A DNA stretch of 43,659 nt from Tepidimonas sp. (GTDB lineage Bacteria > Pseudomonadota > Gammaproteobacteria > Burkholderiales > Burkholderiaceae_C): the NCBI RefSeq assembly GCF_029335975.1, contig NZ_JARJMT020000078.1, forward strand, positions 1-43,659, read 5' to 3'. Below are positions 2,957 to 22,610 of the stretch, piece by piece. The notes beneath the pieces are model-generated. The model was not told where the DNA came from. It did no database searches and was given only the letters and a program-made list of their open reading frames with translations. How positions within the stretch are numbered: position 1 is the stretch's first letter; every line of letters begins with the position of its first letter. The position numbers and the translations under genes were made by a program.

Positions 2957-4000
2957 TTAGGCCTGGGTGTGCTTCTCGATCAGCTTACGGGCCGTCTCCA
3001 GCAGCTCGCGGCCGTTGAGACCGCGCTTGTCCATGTCCCGTATCCATTCGACTTCCACCTGGCGCGCTTTGCGGCGGAACTCCTGCGCTTCGGCCAGCCC
3101 GATGGTGTGGATCTTGTTACCGCGGTCCACGGCCAGCTGGCGTGCCGGCGCATCGCCCGCCTGCTGGATACGCCCCAGAAGGGCAGACGTTTCGATGCCC
3201 GAGTTGGCGTCGATCACTTTCTTGAGGTCGGGCGGCAGCGAGGCGTAACGCGCCTTGTTCATGCCCATGACGAAGGTGGTCGTGTAGAGCGCACCGCCCT
3301 TGGGGTCGAACTCGCTGTGGTAGCCGACCAGCTCATGCACCTTGACCGAGGGTACCACCTCCCAGGGAATGACGCAGCCGTCGATGACGCCTTTGGATAG
3401 CGCATCGGGGATCTGCGGCAGCGGCATGCCGACTGGGGTGGCGCCCAGGTAGCCCAGCATTTTGGTGATCTGGCGCGTCGGGCCGCGCATCTTGAGGCCG
3501 CGCAAATCGTCCGGTTGCGTGATCAGGCGCGTTTTGACATGGAACATACCCGGGCCGTGCACCTGCAAGGCGATGGGATGAATGTCGCGGTACTCGTCGG
3601 CGCCCTTGGTCTGGATGTACTCCCAGAAGGCTTTGGAGGTGGCCTCTGCGTTCGTCATCATGAACGGCAGCTCGAACACCTCGGTGCGCGGGAAGCGCCC
3701 TGGGGTGTTGCCTGGCAGCGTCCAGACGATGTCCACCACGCCGTCCTTGGCCTGGTCGTAAAGCTGAACTGGCGAGCCGCCAAGTTGCATCGCGGGATAG
3801 GCCTCGAACTTGATGCGCCCGCCCGAGTCCTTTTCCACCTTGTCCATCCATGCCTTGTGCATCTTCAGCCACACGTTCGAGGCGGGCGACATGAAGGTGT
3901 GGAACTTGAGCGTGACGCTCTGCTGAGCAAAACCGATCAGGCCAGGGGCGCCCAGCACGGCGGCGGCACCCGATTTCAGCACGGTGCGGCGGTGGATCAT
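2957..4000 (-). CDS. TRAP-type transporter periplasmic substrate-binding protein (DctP family)
   Basis: A 347-residue protein of the TRAP solute receptor family, which captures organic acids in the periplasm for a separate membrane permease. The start at 4000 gives MIHRRTVLKSGAAAV, a twin-arginine-like signal with a likely cut after GFA near residue 25. A longer frame to 4165 opens with GTG and would bury this signal, so I reject it. Family features include the early LKFHTFMSP strand, the DIVWTLPG segment, and LRGLKMRGPTRQITKMLGYL, where the conserved Arg of the family binds the carboxylate. No DctQ or DctM membrane subunit is adjacent, so the receptor is an orphan here. The ligand is unknown. 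The gene is divergent from the maiA-like gene. Confidence 0.88.
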   Translation of the reverse strand: MIHRRTVLKSGAAAVLGAPGLIGFAQQSVTLKFHTFMSPASNVWLKMHKAWMDKVEKDSGGRIKFEAYPAMQLGGSPVQLYDQAKDGVVDIVWTLPGNTPGRFPRTEVFELPFMMTNAEATSKAFWEYIQTKGADEYRDIHPIALQVHGPGMFHVKTRLITQPDDLRGLKMRGPTRQITKMLGYLGATPVGMPLPQIPDALSKGVIDGCVIPWEVVPSVKVHELVGYHSEFDPKGGALYTTTFVMGMNKARYASLPPDLKKVIDANSGIETSALLGRIQQAGDAPARQLAVDRGNKIHTIGLAEAQEFRRKARQVEVEWIRDMDKRGLNGRELLETARKLIEKHTQA

Positions 4001-6141: not shown

Positions 6142-7974
6142 ATGACGCAATCCCGCACCGACGGCCAACCGTCCTGGATCGAAGGGTCGCAGCAAGCCTT
6201 TGCGCAATGGACTCAGGCGGTGCGGGCGGCGCTGCACGGAATGGGATGGACGGGTCCTGCAGCCTCTGCTGGGCCCGCCGGATCGGGTGGGGGGCGGATT
6301 GAGGGCCTGACAGAGCTGCTGGGCCGACTCGGGGGGACGGCGTTGCAGTTGGACCCTGGCGTGTGGGCCGAAATTCAACGGGATTATCTGCGCGAGGTCG
6401 CTGAGCTGTGGCAGCAGGGCTTGCAAGTCCAGCCACCGCGGCAGGATCGCCGCTTTGCGGCCGACGCCTGGGCGCGCAATCCCGTGGCGTCCTACAGTGC
6501 GGCGTTGTATCTGCTCAACGCCCGCACGCTCATGCGCATGGCCGAGGCCGTGCAGGCCGACGCCAAGACCCAGGCGCGCATCCGCTTCGCGGTGCAGCAG
6601 TGGATCGACGCCACCGCGCCGAGCAACTTTCTCGCCTTTAACGCCGAGGCCCAGCAAAAAGCCCTGGACACCCAGGGCGAGAGTATCGCCAAGGGCGTGC
6701 AAAACCTGCTCAACGATATGAAGCAGGGGTTCGTTTCCACGACGGATCACAAGGCCTTTGAAGTCGGGCGCAATGTCGCCACCACCGAGGGGCAGGTGGT
6801 ATTCGAAAACGAATACTTTCAGCTGATCGAGTACAAGCCGCTGACCGCGCGCGTGTACGAGCGGCCCTTCCTCGTCGTGCCGCCGTGCATCAACAAGTAT
6901 TACATCCTGGACCTGCAGCCGGACAACTCCTTCCTGCGCTATGCGGTCGAGCAAGGCCATCGTACCTTCGTCATCAGCTGGCGCAACCCGGACGCCACGC
7001 TGGCGCAGGCCACCTGGGACGACTACATCGAGCATGCCGTCATCCGCGCCATCGACGTGGTGCGTGAAATCGGCAAAGCCGACACCATCAACGCGCTGGG
7101 CTTTTGCGTCGGCGGCACCATGCTCGGCACGGCGCTGGCGGTGCTGGCTGCGCGCGGTGACCGCAAGGTCGAAAGCGTCACCTTCCTGACCACCCTGCTG
7201 GACTTCACCGACACCGGCGTGCTGGATGTCTTCATTGATGAGGCCTTCGTCGCGCTGCGCGAGCTGCAGTACGCGCACGGCGGTTTGCTGCCTGGGCGGG
7301 ATCTGGCCACCACATTCAGCTTCTTGCGCCCGAACGACTTGGTTTGGAACTACGTCGTTGGCAACTACCTCAAGGGTGAGACACCGCCGCCGTTCGACCT
7401 GCTGTACTGGAACAGCGACAGCACCAACCTGCCCGGCAAGTGGTACGCGTGGTATCTGCGTCACACCTACCTACAAAACGAACTGTGCCAGCCAGGCAAG
7501 CTGACCGTCTGCGGTGTGCCGGTGGACCTCGGCGCGATCGATATCCCGGCCTATGTCTACGGCTCGCGCGAGGACCACATCGTGCCGATCGGTGGCGCCT
7601 ATGCCACCACGCGCCATCTCGGTGGGCCGATGCGTTTCGTCATGGGCGCCTCGGGTCACATCGCCGGCGTCATCAACCCTGCGGCAAAGGGCAAGCGCAG
7701 CTTCTGGACTGGCCCCGAGGGGCACTTCCCCGAATCGGTGGACGACTGGATCGCCGCCGCCACCGAGCACAAGGGCAGTTGGTGGACCGACTGGACCCCG
7801 TGGCTGGCGGCGCACGGCGGCCGCCAGATCCCGGCCCCGCGCAGTCGCGGCAACCGTCGCTACCGCCCGATCGAGCCGGCGCCAGGCCGCTATGTGCGTG
7901 TCAAGGCCGACGAGGCCCTGGCCACGCTCCTCGCTACACCCATTTCCCCCGTTCCCTCCACACAAAAAGGATGA
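6142..7974 (+). CDS. phaC: Class I polyhydroxyalkanoate synthase PhaC
   Basis: A 610-residue enzyme that polymerises (R)-3-hydroxyacyl-CoA, chiefly 3-hydroxybutyryl-CoA, into PHA at the granule surface. The lipase-like box GFCVGG holds the nucleophile Cys322; Asp478 (SREDHIVP) and His506 (ASGHIAGV) complete the triad. Length and spacing match class I single-subunit synthases such as the Cupriavidus enzyme (Cys319, Asp480, His508). The N-terminal 110 residues are variable, with a Gly/Ala-rich stretch near 40-52. The start is supported by AGGAGA at about 6129-6134. It opens the phaC-phaA-phaB operon; the phaA start is five bases beyond its stop. Confidence 0.97.
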
Positions 7975-10030: not shown

Positions 10031-11044
<1,014 letters not shown>

Positions 11045-18736: not shown

Positions 18737-19242
18737 CAGGCCGCGTGCGACCGTTCAACGTCCTGGGTGTCCAACAAATTGCCATCGGCGGGCCAGACAA
18801 GGCCCGGCTGCGCCGCTTGTGGGTGGACTTGTTCGGGCTGGAGGTGACCGGCACCTTCGTCAGCGAGCGCGAGAACGTGGACGAAGACATATGCGCCATC
18901 GGCGCCGGTGCGTTCAAAGTCGAGGTGGATCTGATGCAACCACTCGACCCGGACAAAAAGCCCGCTGTGCACGTCACGCCGTTGAACCATGTGGGCCTGT
19001 GGGTGGATGATCTGCCGGGCGCTGTCGAATGGCTCAGCGCCCAAGGCGTGCGCTTTGCGCCCGGTGGCATCCGCCGGGGGGCTGCAGGCTTTGACATCTG
19101 CTTCATTCATCCCAAGGGCAACGAGGAGTTTCCCGTGGGCGGGGAGGGCGTGTTGATCGAGCTGGTGCAAGCCCCGCCTGAAGTGATCCAGGCTTATCGA
19201 GCGCTGGCGGCCGACCCGTCGGCGGTGCGGGCGCTCGATTAG
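18733..19242 (+). CDS. VOC-family protein, candidate methylmalonyl-CoA epimerase
   Basis: A 169-residue vicinal-oxygen-chelate protein with two beta-alpha-beta-beta-beta modules (about residues 10-75 and 83-148). The pathway needs an epimerase between the PccAB product (S) and the Mcm substrate (R), and this gene is coupled to pccA by an ATGA overlap, so methylmalonyl-CoA epimerase is the obvious candidate. Metal-ligand positions inferred by alignment from memory are Gln15 (VQQIAI, where most members have His), Asp66 (VDLMQP), His86 (LNHVGLWV) and Glu143 (VLIELVQ). The Gln is unusual, so a glyoxalase-like or other role is possible. The stop codon interlocks with the convergent rnfB-like gene. 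Confidence 0.75.
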
Positions 19243-19925
19243 GGAGAGGTGGTGCGGGCTGCGCGCGCCTTCGCGATGGCTGCCTCGATCAAAGCGCGCT
19301 TGCGCTCGAGGACGGCCGGGTCGGTGTGCTTGGACTGGGCTGGCAGATCGGCCAGCTTGGCTTCGGCCTTGTGCAAACGGCGCTCGGCCTGCTCGTCGGC
19401 CTCGCGGGCGAGCCGGGCCAGGCGGGCTTCATAGCGGGTGCGCGCTTGCTTAGCCTGTTGGGGCGACCAGGCAGCCCAGCCCCGTCGCTCACCGCTGACG
19501 GGGACCATGGCAATGCAGTCTACCGGGCACACCGGGACGCACAGCTCGCACCCCGTGCAGTAGGGCTCGATGACGGTGTGCATGCGCTTGTGCGCACCGA
19601 CGATGGCATCGGTTGGGCAGGCTTTGATGCACAAGGTGCAGCCGATGCACCAGGTCTCATCGATGACGGCCACACCCAGCGGCCCCTCAGTGCCATAGGC
19701 AGGATTCAGGGGCTTTGGTGCGCGGCCGGTCAGTGCAGCCAGCCGGCGCACACCTTCTTCACCCCCCGGCGGACAGCGGTCGATATCGGCCTCGCCACGG
19801 GCAATGGCCTCGGCGTAGCGGCGGCAATCGGGATAGCCGCAGCGCGTGCACTGCGTCTGCGGCAGAGCGGCATCGATGCGGTCGGCCAGCGTCGCGGCGC
19901 TGGCGCATCGCCCCTCTGCGCTCAT
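19239..19925 (-). CDS. rnfB: RnfB-like electron-transfer ferredoxin (soluble)
   Basis: A 228-residue Fe-S protein. An N-terminal cluster motif has Cys26, Cys29, Cys34 and Cys51 (CTRCGYPDC ... CPPGG), as in RnfB/RsxB and related Fe-S domains. Two 4Fe-4S ferredoxin motifs follow: [12 protein letters not shown] (93-103) and [12 protein letters not shown] (123-133). Residues 155-225 are a charged Ala/Arg/Glu-rich helical tail. The N-terminal membrane helix of true RnfB is absent, and no rnfACDGE genes are adjacent, so it probably works in the cytoplasm as an orphan electron carrier. Its ATG overlaps the phaZ stop (ATGA). Its own stop overlaps that of the convergent VOC gene by four bases. Confidence 0.85.
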
Positions 19926-21307
19926 GCCCCCGGTTCGGTCTTGCGACGAGGGCCGCGCACCAGTGCCGGCTCGTCACGGCGGATGGCCGCGGCCATCAAA
20001 TCGGCCTCGGCCTGGGCGGCGGCCAGATCGGCCCCACCCGTCTGCGGTTGGTGCGCCAGGATGAAGTCCCGCACCACGGGGTAGACCTTCTCGCGCCAGC
20101 GCCGCCCACTGAAGATGCCGTAATGGCCGGCCCCCGCGACTTCGAAGTGCTGCTGCTCGCGGGGCTCGATCCCGGTACACAGGTCATGTGCCGCTCGCGT
20201 CTGACCGCTGCCCGAGATGTCGTCCAGTTCGCCTTCGACCGTCAGCAGGCCGGTGTTCCGAATGTCTTGCGGGCGCACACGCTCCAGTGTGCCGTCCGGC
20301 GCCCGCACGTCCCAGGTGCCGTGCACCAGTTTGAACTCTTGGAACACCGTGCGGATGGTCTCTAGGTAATAGTTGGCATCCATGTCCAACACCGCGTTGT
20401 ACTCGTCGTAAAACTGGCGGTGAGCTTCCGCGCTCTCGTTGTCACCCTGGACCAAGTGCTTGAAATAGTCGTAGTGGCTGTTGACATGGCGATCCGGGTT
20501 CATCGCAATGAAGCCGGCATGTTGCAAAAATCCCGGATAGACGCGCCGCCCCTCGCCCGGGAAGCCCGCAGGCACCCGGTAAATCACGTTATTTTCAAAC
20601 CACGAGTAGCTGCGCCGCAGCGCCAAATTGTTCACTGCAGTGGGAGATCGACGCGCGTCGATCGGTCCGCCCATCATGATCATGGACAGCGGGGTCTTCT
20701 CGCCACGGCTGGCCATCAGCGACACGGCCGCCAACACCGGCACCGTGGGCTGGCACACGCTCATCACATGGCAGTTGCCATATTGCCGTTGCAGGTAGCG
20801 GATAAACTCCTGCACATAGTTGACATAGTCGTCCAGGTGGAATTCGCCCTCACTCAGGGGTACGAGACGGGCGTTCTTCCAGTCGGTGATGTAGACCTTG
20901 TGGTCGCGCAGCATGGTGCGCACCGTATCGCGCAGCAGCGTCGCGTAGTGTCCCGATAGCGGCGCGACGATCAGCACCACCGGCTGCTCCTTGAGGCGCA
21001 GCAGCGTTTGGGGGTCGTCGCAGTATCGCTTGAAGCGGCGCAGCTCGCAAAAGGGTTTGTTGATCTCCACCCGCTCGTGGACCGCGACATGCACCCCGTC
21101 GATGTCCACGCTGCGGATGCTGAACTCAGGCTTTTCGTAGTCTTTGCCCAGGCGGTGCAGCAGGTCGTAGGCGGCTGCGACGCGCTGCGAAAACGGCGTC
21201 TGCGCCAAGGGCGAAGCGGGATTGGCAAACAGCTTGGCCGCCACCAGCGCGAAGGCGGAGAACGGCTCGATCAAAGCCCGCTGGGCCTCGTATAGGTGAT
21301 AGAGCAT
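19922..21307 (-). CDS. phaZ: Intracellular polyhydroxyalkanoate depolymerase PhaZ
   Basis: A 461-residue intracellular PHB depolymerase, which breaks down amorphous PHA granules. The nucleophile Cys185 lies in [13 protein letters not shown], matching the Cys183 of the Cupriavidus PhaZ1 type rather than a Ser lipase box. [14 protein letters not shown] and [14 protein letters not shown] give the Asp and His of the triad. [16 protein letters not shown] and [12 protein letters not shown] are family segments shared with PHA synthases. The protein has no signal peptide. The C-terminal 50 residues (about 415-461) are an Ala/Arg-rich tail. It is the first gene of a minus-strand unit with the rnfB-like gene and has a palindrome at its promoter. 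Confidence 0.94.
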
Positions 21308-21322
21308 GGCATCGGTGGTCTA

Positions 21323-21343
21323 TGTTGCAGTGCAACAAATATA
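21323..21343 (-). promoter_or_regulatory. phaZ promoter -10 element with palindromic operator
   Basis: TGTTGCAGTGCAACA at 21323-21337 is a perfect palindrome with seven-base arms around one base. Directly upstream on the minus strand is TATATT (21343-21338), a good -10, so the palindrome would cover the start of transcription. It lies 16 bases before the phaZ ATG. TGCA-rich dyads are the type of site reported for the PHA regulator PhaR, making PhaR repression a plausible reading; the protein that binds is not shown by the sequence. A clear -35 is not seen. Confidence 0.6.
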
Positions 21344-21377
21344 ACACGAAGCCACCTTTCACGCCATGCGGTCGAAT

Positions 21378-21399
21378 CCCGAGGCCGCGTCGCCTCGGG
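21378..21399 (-). terminator. Hairpin after the aminotransferase gene
   Basis: Perfect eight-base arms CCCGAGGC (21378-21385) and GCCTCGGG (21392-21399) flank a six-base loop, 14 bases after the aminotransferase stop on the minus strand. No T-run follows, so it may slow or end transcription only weakly before the phaZ promoter. Confidence 0.5.
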
Positions 21400-21413
21400 G
21401 ACAGCCATGCGGA

Positions 21414-22610
21414 TCAGAGGACGGCTGCGATCGACCGGCAGACGTCGTCGATGTTGCGGCTGTTGAGGGCAGCCACGCACATGCGGCCTGTGTCGGTGCC
21501 GTAGACGCCAAACTCGGTGCGCAAACGCACCATTTGTTCTTGGGTCAGCCCGGAGTAGCTGAACATACCAATCTGCTGAGTGATGAAAGACATATCCTGC
21601 CGCACGCCCGCGGCGCGCAATCCATCCACCAGCCGCTGGCGCATCGCCTTGATGCGGGTGCGCATGTCGCCCAGCTCCTGTTCCCATAACGCGCGCAGCT
21701 CAGGCGTGTTGAGCACCTGCGCCACCACGGCGGCGCCGTGTGTGGGGGGGTTGGAGTAGTTGGTGCGCACGACGATCTTCAGTTGCGACAGCACGCGGTC
21801 GGCCTCGTCCTTATTGGCACACACCACCGACAGCGCGCCGACGCGCTCGCCATACAGGCTAAAGCTCTTGGAGAACGACGTGGAGACGAACACATCCAGT
21901 CCAGCCGCGACGAACTTACCCACCGCCGCACCGTCTTCGACGATGCCGTGGCCAAAGCCCTGGTAGGCCATGTCGAGGAAGGGTACCAGGCCGCGCTCGC
22001 GCACCACGTCTACGATGGCGTCCCACTGCTCGGGCGTTAGGTCGTAGCCGGTGGGGTTGTGGCAGCAGGCGTGCAGCACGACGATGGTGCCCGCTTCAGC
22101 CGCGCGCAGGCTGGCCAGCATGCCTTCCATGTTCACGCCGCGCCTGGCCGCGTCGTAGTAGGCATAGGTATCCACTGCAAAGCCAGCGTGGGCAAACAGG
22201 GCCCGGTGGTTCTCCCAGCTCGGGTCGCTGATCAGCACCTTGGCAGCCGGGGTGAGCTTTTTCAAAAAGTCGGCGCCAATCTTCAGGCCGCCCGTGCCGC
22301 CCAGCGCTTGTACCGTGGCCACTCGGCCGCTGCGCACCGCCTCGCTATCGGCGCCAAATACCAGGGCCTTGACCGCGTTGACGTAAGCCGGCATGCCGTC
22401 GATGGGCAAATAGCCGCGGGGGCTGGGCTTTTCCATCAGGCGCTGCTCGGCCGCCCGCACACATTCCAGCAGCGGCAGCTTGCCGGCATCGTCGTAGTAC
22501 ACACCAACGCCCAAGTTGACCTTGTTGGGCCGGGTGTCCGCGGCAAACTGTTCGTTCAGGCCCAAGATGGGGTCGCGAGGAGCCATTTCGACGGCGGAGA
22601 AGAGCGACAT
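21414..22610 (-). CDS. tyrB: Aromatic / aspartate aminotransferase (class I, PLP)
   Basis: A 398-residue class I aminotransferase of the AspC/TyrB type, transferring amino groups between aspartate or aromatic amino acids and 2-oxo acids. The N-terminus MSLFSAVEMAPRDPILGLNE, the segment KVNLGVGVYYDDAGKLPLL and HACCHNPTGYDLT are typical of the subfamily. The PLP Lys248 is in STSFSKSFSLYGERVGAL, and the substrate-binding Arg near the C-terminus lies in the segment ending RMCVAALNSRNID. AspC and TyrB cannot be separated reliably by eye; aromatic preference is a guess. The ATG has no strong ribosome binding site. The gene is divergent from uvrB across 68 bases. Confidence 0.85.
   Translation of the reverse strand: MSLFSAVEMAPRDPILGLNEQFAADTRPNKVNLGVGVYYDDAGKLPLLECVRAAEQRLMEKPSPRGYLPIDGMPAYVNAVKALVFGADSEAVRSGRVATVQALGGTGGLKIGADFLKKLTPAAKVLISDPSWENHRALFAHAGFAVDTYAYYDAARRGVNMEGMLASLRAAEAGTIVVLHACCHNPTGYDLTPEQWDAIVDVVRERGLVPFLDMAYQGFGHGIVEDGAAVGKFVAAGLDVFVSTSFSKSFSLYGERVGALSVVCANKDEADRVLSQLKIVVRTNYSNPPTHGAAVVAQVLNTPELRALWEQELGDMRTRIKAMRQRLVDGLRAAGVRQDMSFITQQIGMFSYSGLTQEQMVRLRTEFGVYGTDTGRMCVAALNSRNIDDVCRSIAAVL

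Follow-up and report, generated by a model that had tools for sequence, protein, structure and literature searches.

A candidate PhaR-type operator at the presumed start point of the Tepidimonas phaZ gene

The intracellular PHA depolymerase gene phaZ of a Tepidimonas strain is preceded by a perfect 15-bp palindrome that very probably serves PhaR as the one operator at this promoter, with repression lifted once the protein is titrated away by PHA granules. Binding of PhaR at phaZ, repression there and its relief by titration would be expected from the behavior of PhaR in other species. The kind of switch is already known, and this member of it appears to be new as far as a literature search shows; the search found no published account of PhaR at phaZ in this family, which is taken here to be the Comamonadaceae. 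Within the genus, T. taiwanensis is reportedly a published PHB producer. The more novel part is a family-wide split of targets, in which phaZ and phasin genes have sites and phaC and phaR are mostly without them. The Tepidimonas site offers a clear and directly testable case of PhaR control of a depolymerase in a family related to that of R. eutropha: if the reading is right, altering one 15-bp operator should change PHA turnover with synthesis untouched, and such control could help account for depolymerase expression during accumulation.

The palindrome at the phaZ promoter

The window, i.e. the whole stretch of 43,659 nucleotides that was analysed, contains the following features:

6142 to 7974, plus strand: phaC, class I PHA synthase (TIGR01838), without the operator; no upstream site
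19239 to 19925, minus strand: gene of an rsxB-like Fe-S protein (NF005415 RsxB, 5.8e-95)
19922 to 21307, minus strand: phaZ, intracellular PHA depolymerase of 461 aa, the presumed target gene (PF06850, 1e-89; TIGR01849, 5.4e-172)
21323 to 21337, minus strand: candidate PhaR-type operator, perfect palindrome TGTTGCACTGCAACA in the minus-strand reading (from sequence, conservation and published motifs)
21338 to 21343, minus strand: -10 element TATATT, adjoining the operator (from sequence and a conserved -10-like hexamer)
21345 to 21346, minus strand: TG of the extended -10, TG-T-TATATT (TGnTAnnnT conserved)

The window reads TGTTGCAGTGCAACA at 21323-21337, a perfect 7+1+7 palindrome, and the minus strand ahead of the phaZ start codon reads GTGTTATATTTGTTGCACTGCAACATAGACCACCGATGCC. 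The first-pass annotation had pointed to a perfect 15-bp palindrome by the phaZ TATATT, and this is confirmed: the hexamer (21343 to 21338, minus strand) touches the palindrome with 0 bases between, and 15 nt separate the palindrome from the phaZ ATG at 21307. The phaZ start point would be expected about 7 nt past the -10, i.e. near the dyad centre at 21330, and a position over the -10 and the presumed start point suits repression. A scan of 21250-21450 for a sigma-70 two-hexamer promoter (-35 plus -10) found none.

As a palindrome the site does not stand out. The window has 5 perfect palindromes of the 7+1+7 form as compared to a mean of 5.85 over 60 dinucleotide shuffles, of which 40 have at least 5, and the core TTGCANTGCAA at up to 1 mismatch occurs as 1 copy vs 1.63 expected. 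Significance of the palindrome on its own was thus rejected, the window count being no higher than chance. Since size and number alone are at chance level, the weight of the argument rests on place and recurrence; it is these, and not the existence of the palindrome, that go beyond chance. The remaining four perfect palindromes lie at 10703, 15133, 21726 and 27576, a number as expected by chance.

The nearest named phaZ is that of T. fonticaldi (93%). The rsxB-like gene has an overlap of 4 bp with the phaZ stop, and of the 75 named relatives whose sequence reaches far enough, 74 have an rsxB homolog that starts -40 to +60 bp from the phaZ stop (starts in these relatives, L015-L094, being extrapolated from tblastn). 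The two genes probably share one transcription unit and, because of the overlap and of the pairing kept in relatives, the operator probably also controls this RsxB-like electron-transfer protein.

Recurrence of the site and the genes that carry it

Exact copies of TTGCANTGCAA number 3 in the genome (2,150,705 bases): at phaZ, at one phasin gene, and inside a pilX-like coding sequence. The last of these, on contig C8, is the one exact copy that is not at a PHA gene. At the Phasin_2 gene on contig C158 the exact-core 15-mer ends 30 bp ahead of the ATG of the called ORF, with a further copy of two mismatches 56 bp from the first; the second phasin gene, on C90, shows a pair of copies of 2 mismatches each, 58 bp apart. 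At phaR (C12) there are 0 copies at up to 4 mismatches near its start. An earlier expectation of extra copies at phasin and phaR genes is therefore borne out in its first part, in that both phasin genes of this genome carry copies, and fails in its second, and autoregulation of phaR through this site was rejected for the genus (0 of 11 Tepidimonas phaR genes). Against the PhaR reading counts that the 11 Tepidimonas genomes hold 25 copies of the exact core as compared to 10 of the reversed control pattern, and that only 11 of the 25 are at phaZ or phasin genes.

The position at phaZ is strongly conserved. Among 80 named relatives, the best of a longer list, 79 have enough upstream sequence, and in 75 of these a palindrome-like 15-mer (up to 3 mismatches) is found in the 60 bp before the phaZ ATG, vs 9 of 1580 shuffles; it lies 13-44 nt (median 19) ahead of the ATG. 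A -10-like TAnnnT accompanies 74 of the 75 sites (shuffles 16.5%), and the extended form TGnTAnnnT is found at or across the site edge in 62 of the 75 (shuffles 1.7%). Fifty of these 62 share one fixed phase in which the hexamer overlaps operator bases, and in 2 named relatives the extended -10 ends 2 nt ahead of the site. In Tepidimonas (11 of 11) it lies farther upstream than in the fixed-phase relatives and merely adjoins the site. When the Ralstonia consensus is applied to the 79 upstream regions, 44 reach only 3 mismatches and 32 reach 2 or fewer, as compared to random stretches, of which 274 of 1524 reach 3 or fewer and 37 of 1524 reach 2 or fewer; the poorer fit at phaZ probably reflects the loss of the left arm to the -10. 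In two relatives (L055 and L070) a second TGC-rich dyad is seen upstream of the phaZ operator.

Outside the family, 40 further phaZ genes (37 from the 80 genomes of the wider PhaR check described below, plus G310, G285 and G284) show a site within 250 bp in 7 cases, six of them at least 76 bp upstream and one near the start codon. Because sites at phaZ outside the family are patchy and, among these 40 genes, mostly far upstream, the operator at the start point looks like a family trait. Second phaZ paralogs have the site in 0 of 4 cases within the family and 1 of 2 outside, the latter (G040 C4:225595) with a site at -24.

The pattern of genes was followed with a weight matrix trained on the named phaZ sites alone and applied, at a minimum score of 12, to the sequence ahead of these genes in 60 relatives. 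Phasin genes, which are independent of the training, score in 22 of 22 cases in the genus, 26 of 31 in the other family members and 21 of 29 in the rest of the order, where about 0.3 would be expected in all; for the whole family this is 48 of 53, the five misses being the five weakest Phasin_2 matches scored there. The phaZ values (genus 11/11, other family 23/24, other order 4/8) are, within the family, not independent of the training. For phaR the matrix finds 0/11 in the genus, 3/24 in the other family members (3/35 for the family) and 8/17 in the rest of the order; for phaC it finds 0/10, 0/21 (0/31 for the family) and 9/23. Shuffled sequence gives almost no sites in any gene class. The family-wide difference in targets has Fisher p values of 0.00015 for phaC and 0.0029 for phaR, kinship being ignored. 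A cruder probe, the Herbaspirillum motif on either strand, gives a lower yield and the same trend in genus, other family and order: phaZ 10/11, 16/24 and 1/8; phasin 15/22, 26/31 and 13/29; phaR 0/11, 5/24 and 3/17; phaC 0/10, 1/21 and 3/23.

Scored in the matrix scan were 82 of 87 phasin genes (the other five being 3 weak matches and, in G019, 2 pieces at contig ends), 52 of 53 phaR genes (G018 left out for too little upstream sequence), 49 of 52 phaZ genes (3 partial or weak) and 54 of 83 phaC genes. Family genomes contributed a single phaC each and genomes outside the family one or two; left out within the family were G001 and G019 (contig-end pieces), G016 and further paralogs.

The synthase gene of the window conforms to this pattern. 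Between matches at 3706 and 6878, a span that includes the phaC upstream region, there are 0 copies at up to 4 mismatches, and over the 800 bp that precede the PhaC domain the matrix scores no higher than -7.1; the second phaC of the genome likewise has 0 copies at up to 4 mismatches in its available upstream stretch. The original observation that no such dyad stands ahead of phaC thus holds, and the suggestion drawn from it, that synthase and depolymerase are under different control, is supported by the family phaC counts (0/31 with the matrix, 1/31 with the Herbaspirillum motif).

Phasin and phaZ promoters differ in layout. Two sites are found at 51 of 82 phasin promoters across the order, 48 of these with the sites 53-61 bp apart (examples are L002 1499-1569 and L006 1906-1978); the matrix-scored phaZ genes have at most one site each. 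Where phasin sites are spaced by 50-70 bp, a -10-like hexamer lies between them in 50 of 50 promoters, a count that has no shuffle control, at 4-8 nt ahead of the proximal 17-mer.

No further targets are claimed. The pattern TGYTGCRMYGCARCA occurs at 83 places in the 11 Tepidimonas genomes vs 1 for its reversed form, a control that is taken as lenient because TGC and GCA words are common in such genomes. The 50 loci scanned (30 + 20) are 49 distinct places of the 83, L404 repeating L384; some are the phaZ and phasin sites again, and the recurrent non-PHA places scanned, i.e. the metH coding sequence, a gap between hpf and a ptsN-like gene, and a tRNA/integrase border, are not promoter-like (the ptsN-like gene and the tRNA are presumed identities, named by reading of the sequence). 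The motif at metH, with the coding sequence in L374, is seen in seven Tepidimonas genomes (L374, L384, L408, L413, L414, L418 and L420), and its recurrence is probably due to codon constraint. A PhaR-like dyad between hpf and the ptsN-like gene is seen in four (L388, L389, L403 and L405, at about position 1501); it directly adjoins a terminator-like hairpin and is possibly merely part of the terminator.

The regulator and alternative readings

The phaZ palindrome matches the H. seropedicae PhbF motif TGNTGCNNNGCAA exactly, with 0 mismatches (motif as given in PMC3206438), the R. eutropha PhaR motif YTKNTGCRNYGCANMAR with 1 mismatch, i.e. at 16 of 17 positions (as given in PMC12849132), the B. 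diazoefficiens motif TGCRNYGCASMA with 1 mismatch (as given in PMC6201568), and the R. sphaeroides motif CTGCNNNGCAG with 2. PhaR itself is encoded in this genome (PF07879/PF05233; equivalog match to TIGR01848, 5.6e-44). Among the 60 relatives PF07879 is present in all 44 genomes that have phaZ; the 7 genomes without it are also without phaZ, phasin and phaC matches, one of them at a completeness of just 68%. A wider check covered 80 of 101 further genomes with phaZ, 21 being left out, and finds the domain in 78 of 80. The two without it, G263 and G308, also miss the phaZ site, which is equally missing in their PhaR-containing sisters G206 and G197. The motif fit, the encoded PhaR, the phasin copies and the family-wide location together support the original proposal of a PhaR-type operator.

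The operator could be real and yet be read by another regulator shared by phaZ and the phasin genes, e.g. of XRE or TetR type. The bare 11-base core TTGCAMTGCAA is indeed not tied to PhaR: G050, which has no PF07879, phaZ, phasin or phaC match, holds 17 exact copies (1 for the reversed control), and the other six genomes without PhaR have between 1 and 4. In G050 the core may be used by some other regulator, or by a repeat. The absence of a site at phaR itself in Tepidimonas also leans toward another regulator, as do pull-downs with the R. eutropha phaP1, phaZ3 and phaZ5 promoters, which are described as giving non-PhaR regulators too (PMC11332829). However, the full site fits PhaR motifs derived from footprints and gel shifts in several proteobacteria, and among the 60 relatives the site-bearing phaZ and phasin genes are all in genomes that encode PhaR, so that a different reader of the site is unlikely. 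A copy at phaR is not a defining feature of PhaR operators: among the species described, phaR is autoregulated in several and not in B. diazoefficiens.

That PhaR binds here to activate or merely tune phaZ, with no repression, is still less probable. A precedent exists in R. eutropha phaP3, which is reported to be activated by PhaR, but the sites described there differ, lying about 200 bp and about 70 bp upstream as well as inside the gene (PMC12849132), whereas at phaZ the site touches the -10 or shares bases with it and takes in the presumed start point, so that a protein bound there should keep polymerase out. A chance palindrome, or a feature of the DNA or RNA such as a 5' leader hairpin that involves no regulator, is hardly credible: such palindromes are common enough in the window (5 vs 5.85 expected), but retention of one position in 75 of 79 relatives makes pure chance unlikely, and the site also precedes phasin genes that have other leaders.

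The proposed switch and its relation to known PhaR systems

In the PhaR operator reading the site would span the region from the -10 to beyond the presumed phaZ start point of an extended -10 promoter with no clear -35. With no PHA present, free PhaR would occupy the operator and block RNA polymerase at phaZ; as granules form, PhaR would be drawn to their surface and phaZ together with rsxB would be released. The phasin genes, most with two operators flanking the promoter, would be released alongside phaZ, and phaC, as well as phaR in Tepidimonas, would stand outside the switch, being without the operator. A broader proposal is that PhaR of the family has been rewired to a granule-surface switch, in which the phasin genes were kept with two operators, the phaZ-rsxB operator was gained or fixed, control of phaC and phaR, which carry sites in many Burkholderiales outside the family, was lost, and the one-site phaZ is released first; this we regard as about evenly balanced between right and wrong. 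If it is true, synthesis and breakdown would run together by design.

The scheme follows the published model, as outlined in the literature, in which PhaR sits on phasin promoters without PHA and is titrated onto nascent granules. In H. seropedicae, whose PhbF (PhaR) motif TGNTGCNNNGCAA is the one matched exactly, phasin genes are likewise targeted; PhbF is described as binding the promoter of its own gene as well as synthesis genes, and neither of these has the site in Tepidimonas; the main text of that paper mentions no phaZ, phbZ or depolymerase (PMC3206438). The R. eutropha phaP1 operators, as described in PMC12849132, are similar in being degenerate palindromes with one central base and a TGCR-N-YGCA core, and in having one site around the start point; the two-site layout of the phaP1 footprints resembles that of the phasin promoters here. 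The R. eutropha operators of that report are described for phasin genes, whereas in Tepidimonas the proposed target, phaZ, has a single site at an extended -10 promoter, and control of depolymerase genes by PhaR is left as speculation in the passages of this 2025 paper that concern it (PMC12849132).

Depolymerase genes are reported as PhaR targets in more distant bacteria. B. diazoefficiens PhaR is described as repressing and binding phaZ1 and phaZ3 at TGCRNYGCASMA-like sites but, unlike the system proposed here, it belongs to a distant class and has a large pleiotropic regulon (PMC6201568). S. meliloti is an alphaproteobacterium whose PhaR (AniA) regulon is said to reach exopolysaccharide and central metabolism, which are not among the motif copies examined here (PMC12542648). 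It is nevertheless a close parallel in design: a PhaR palindrome is reported in the promoters of the phaZ and SMa1961 depolymerase genes with positive gel shifts, repression of depolymerase genes by PhaR is reported, and SMa1961 as described has one site between the -10 and the start point, nearly the layout of Tepidimonas phaZ (PMC12542648).
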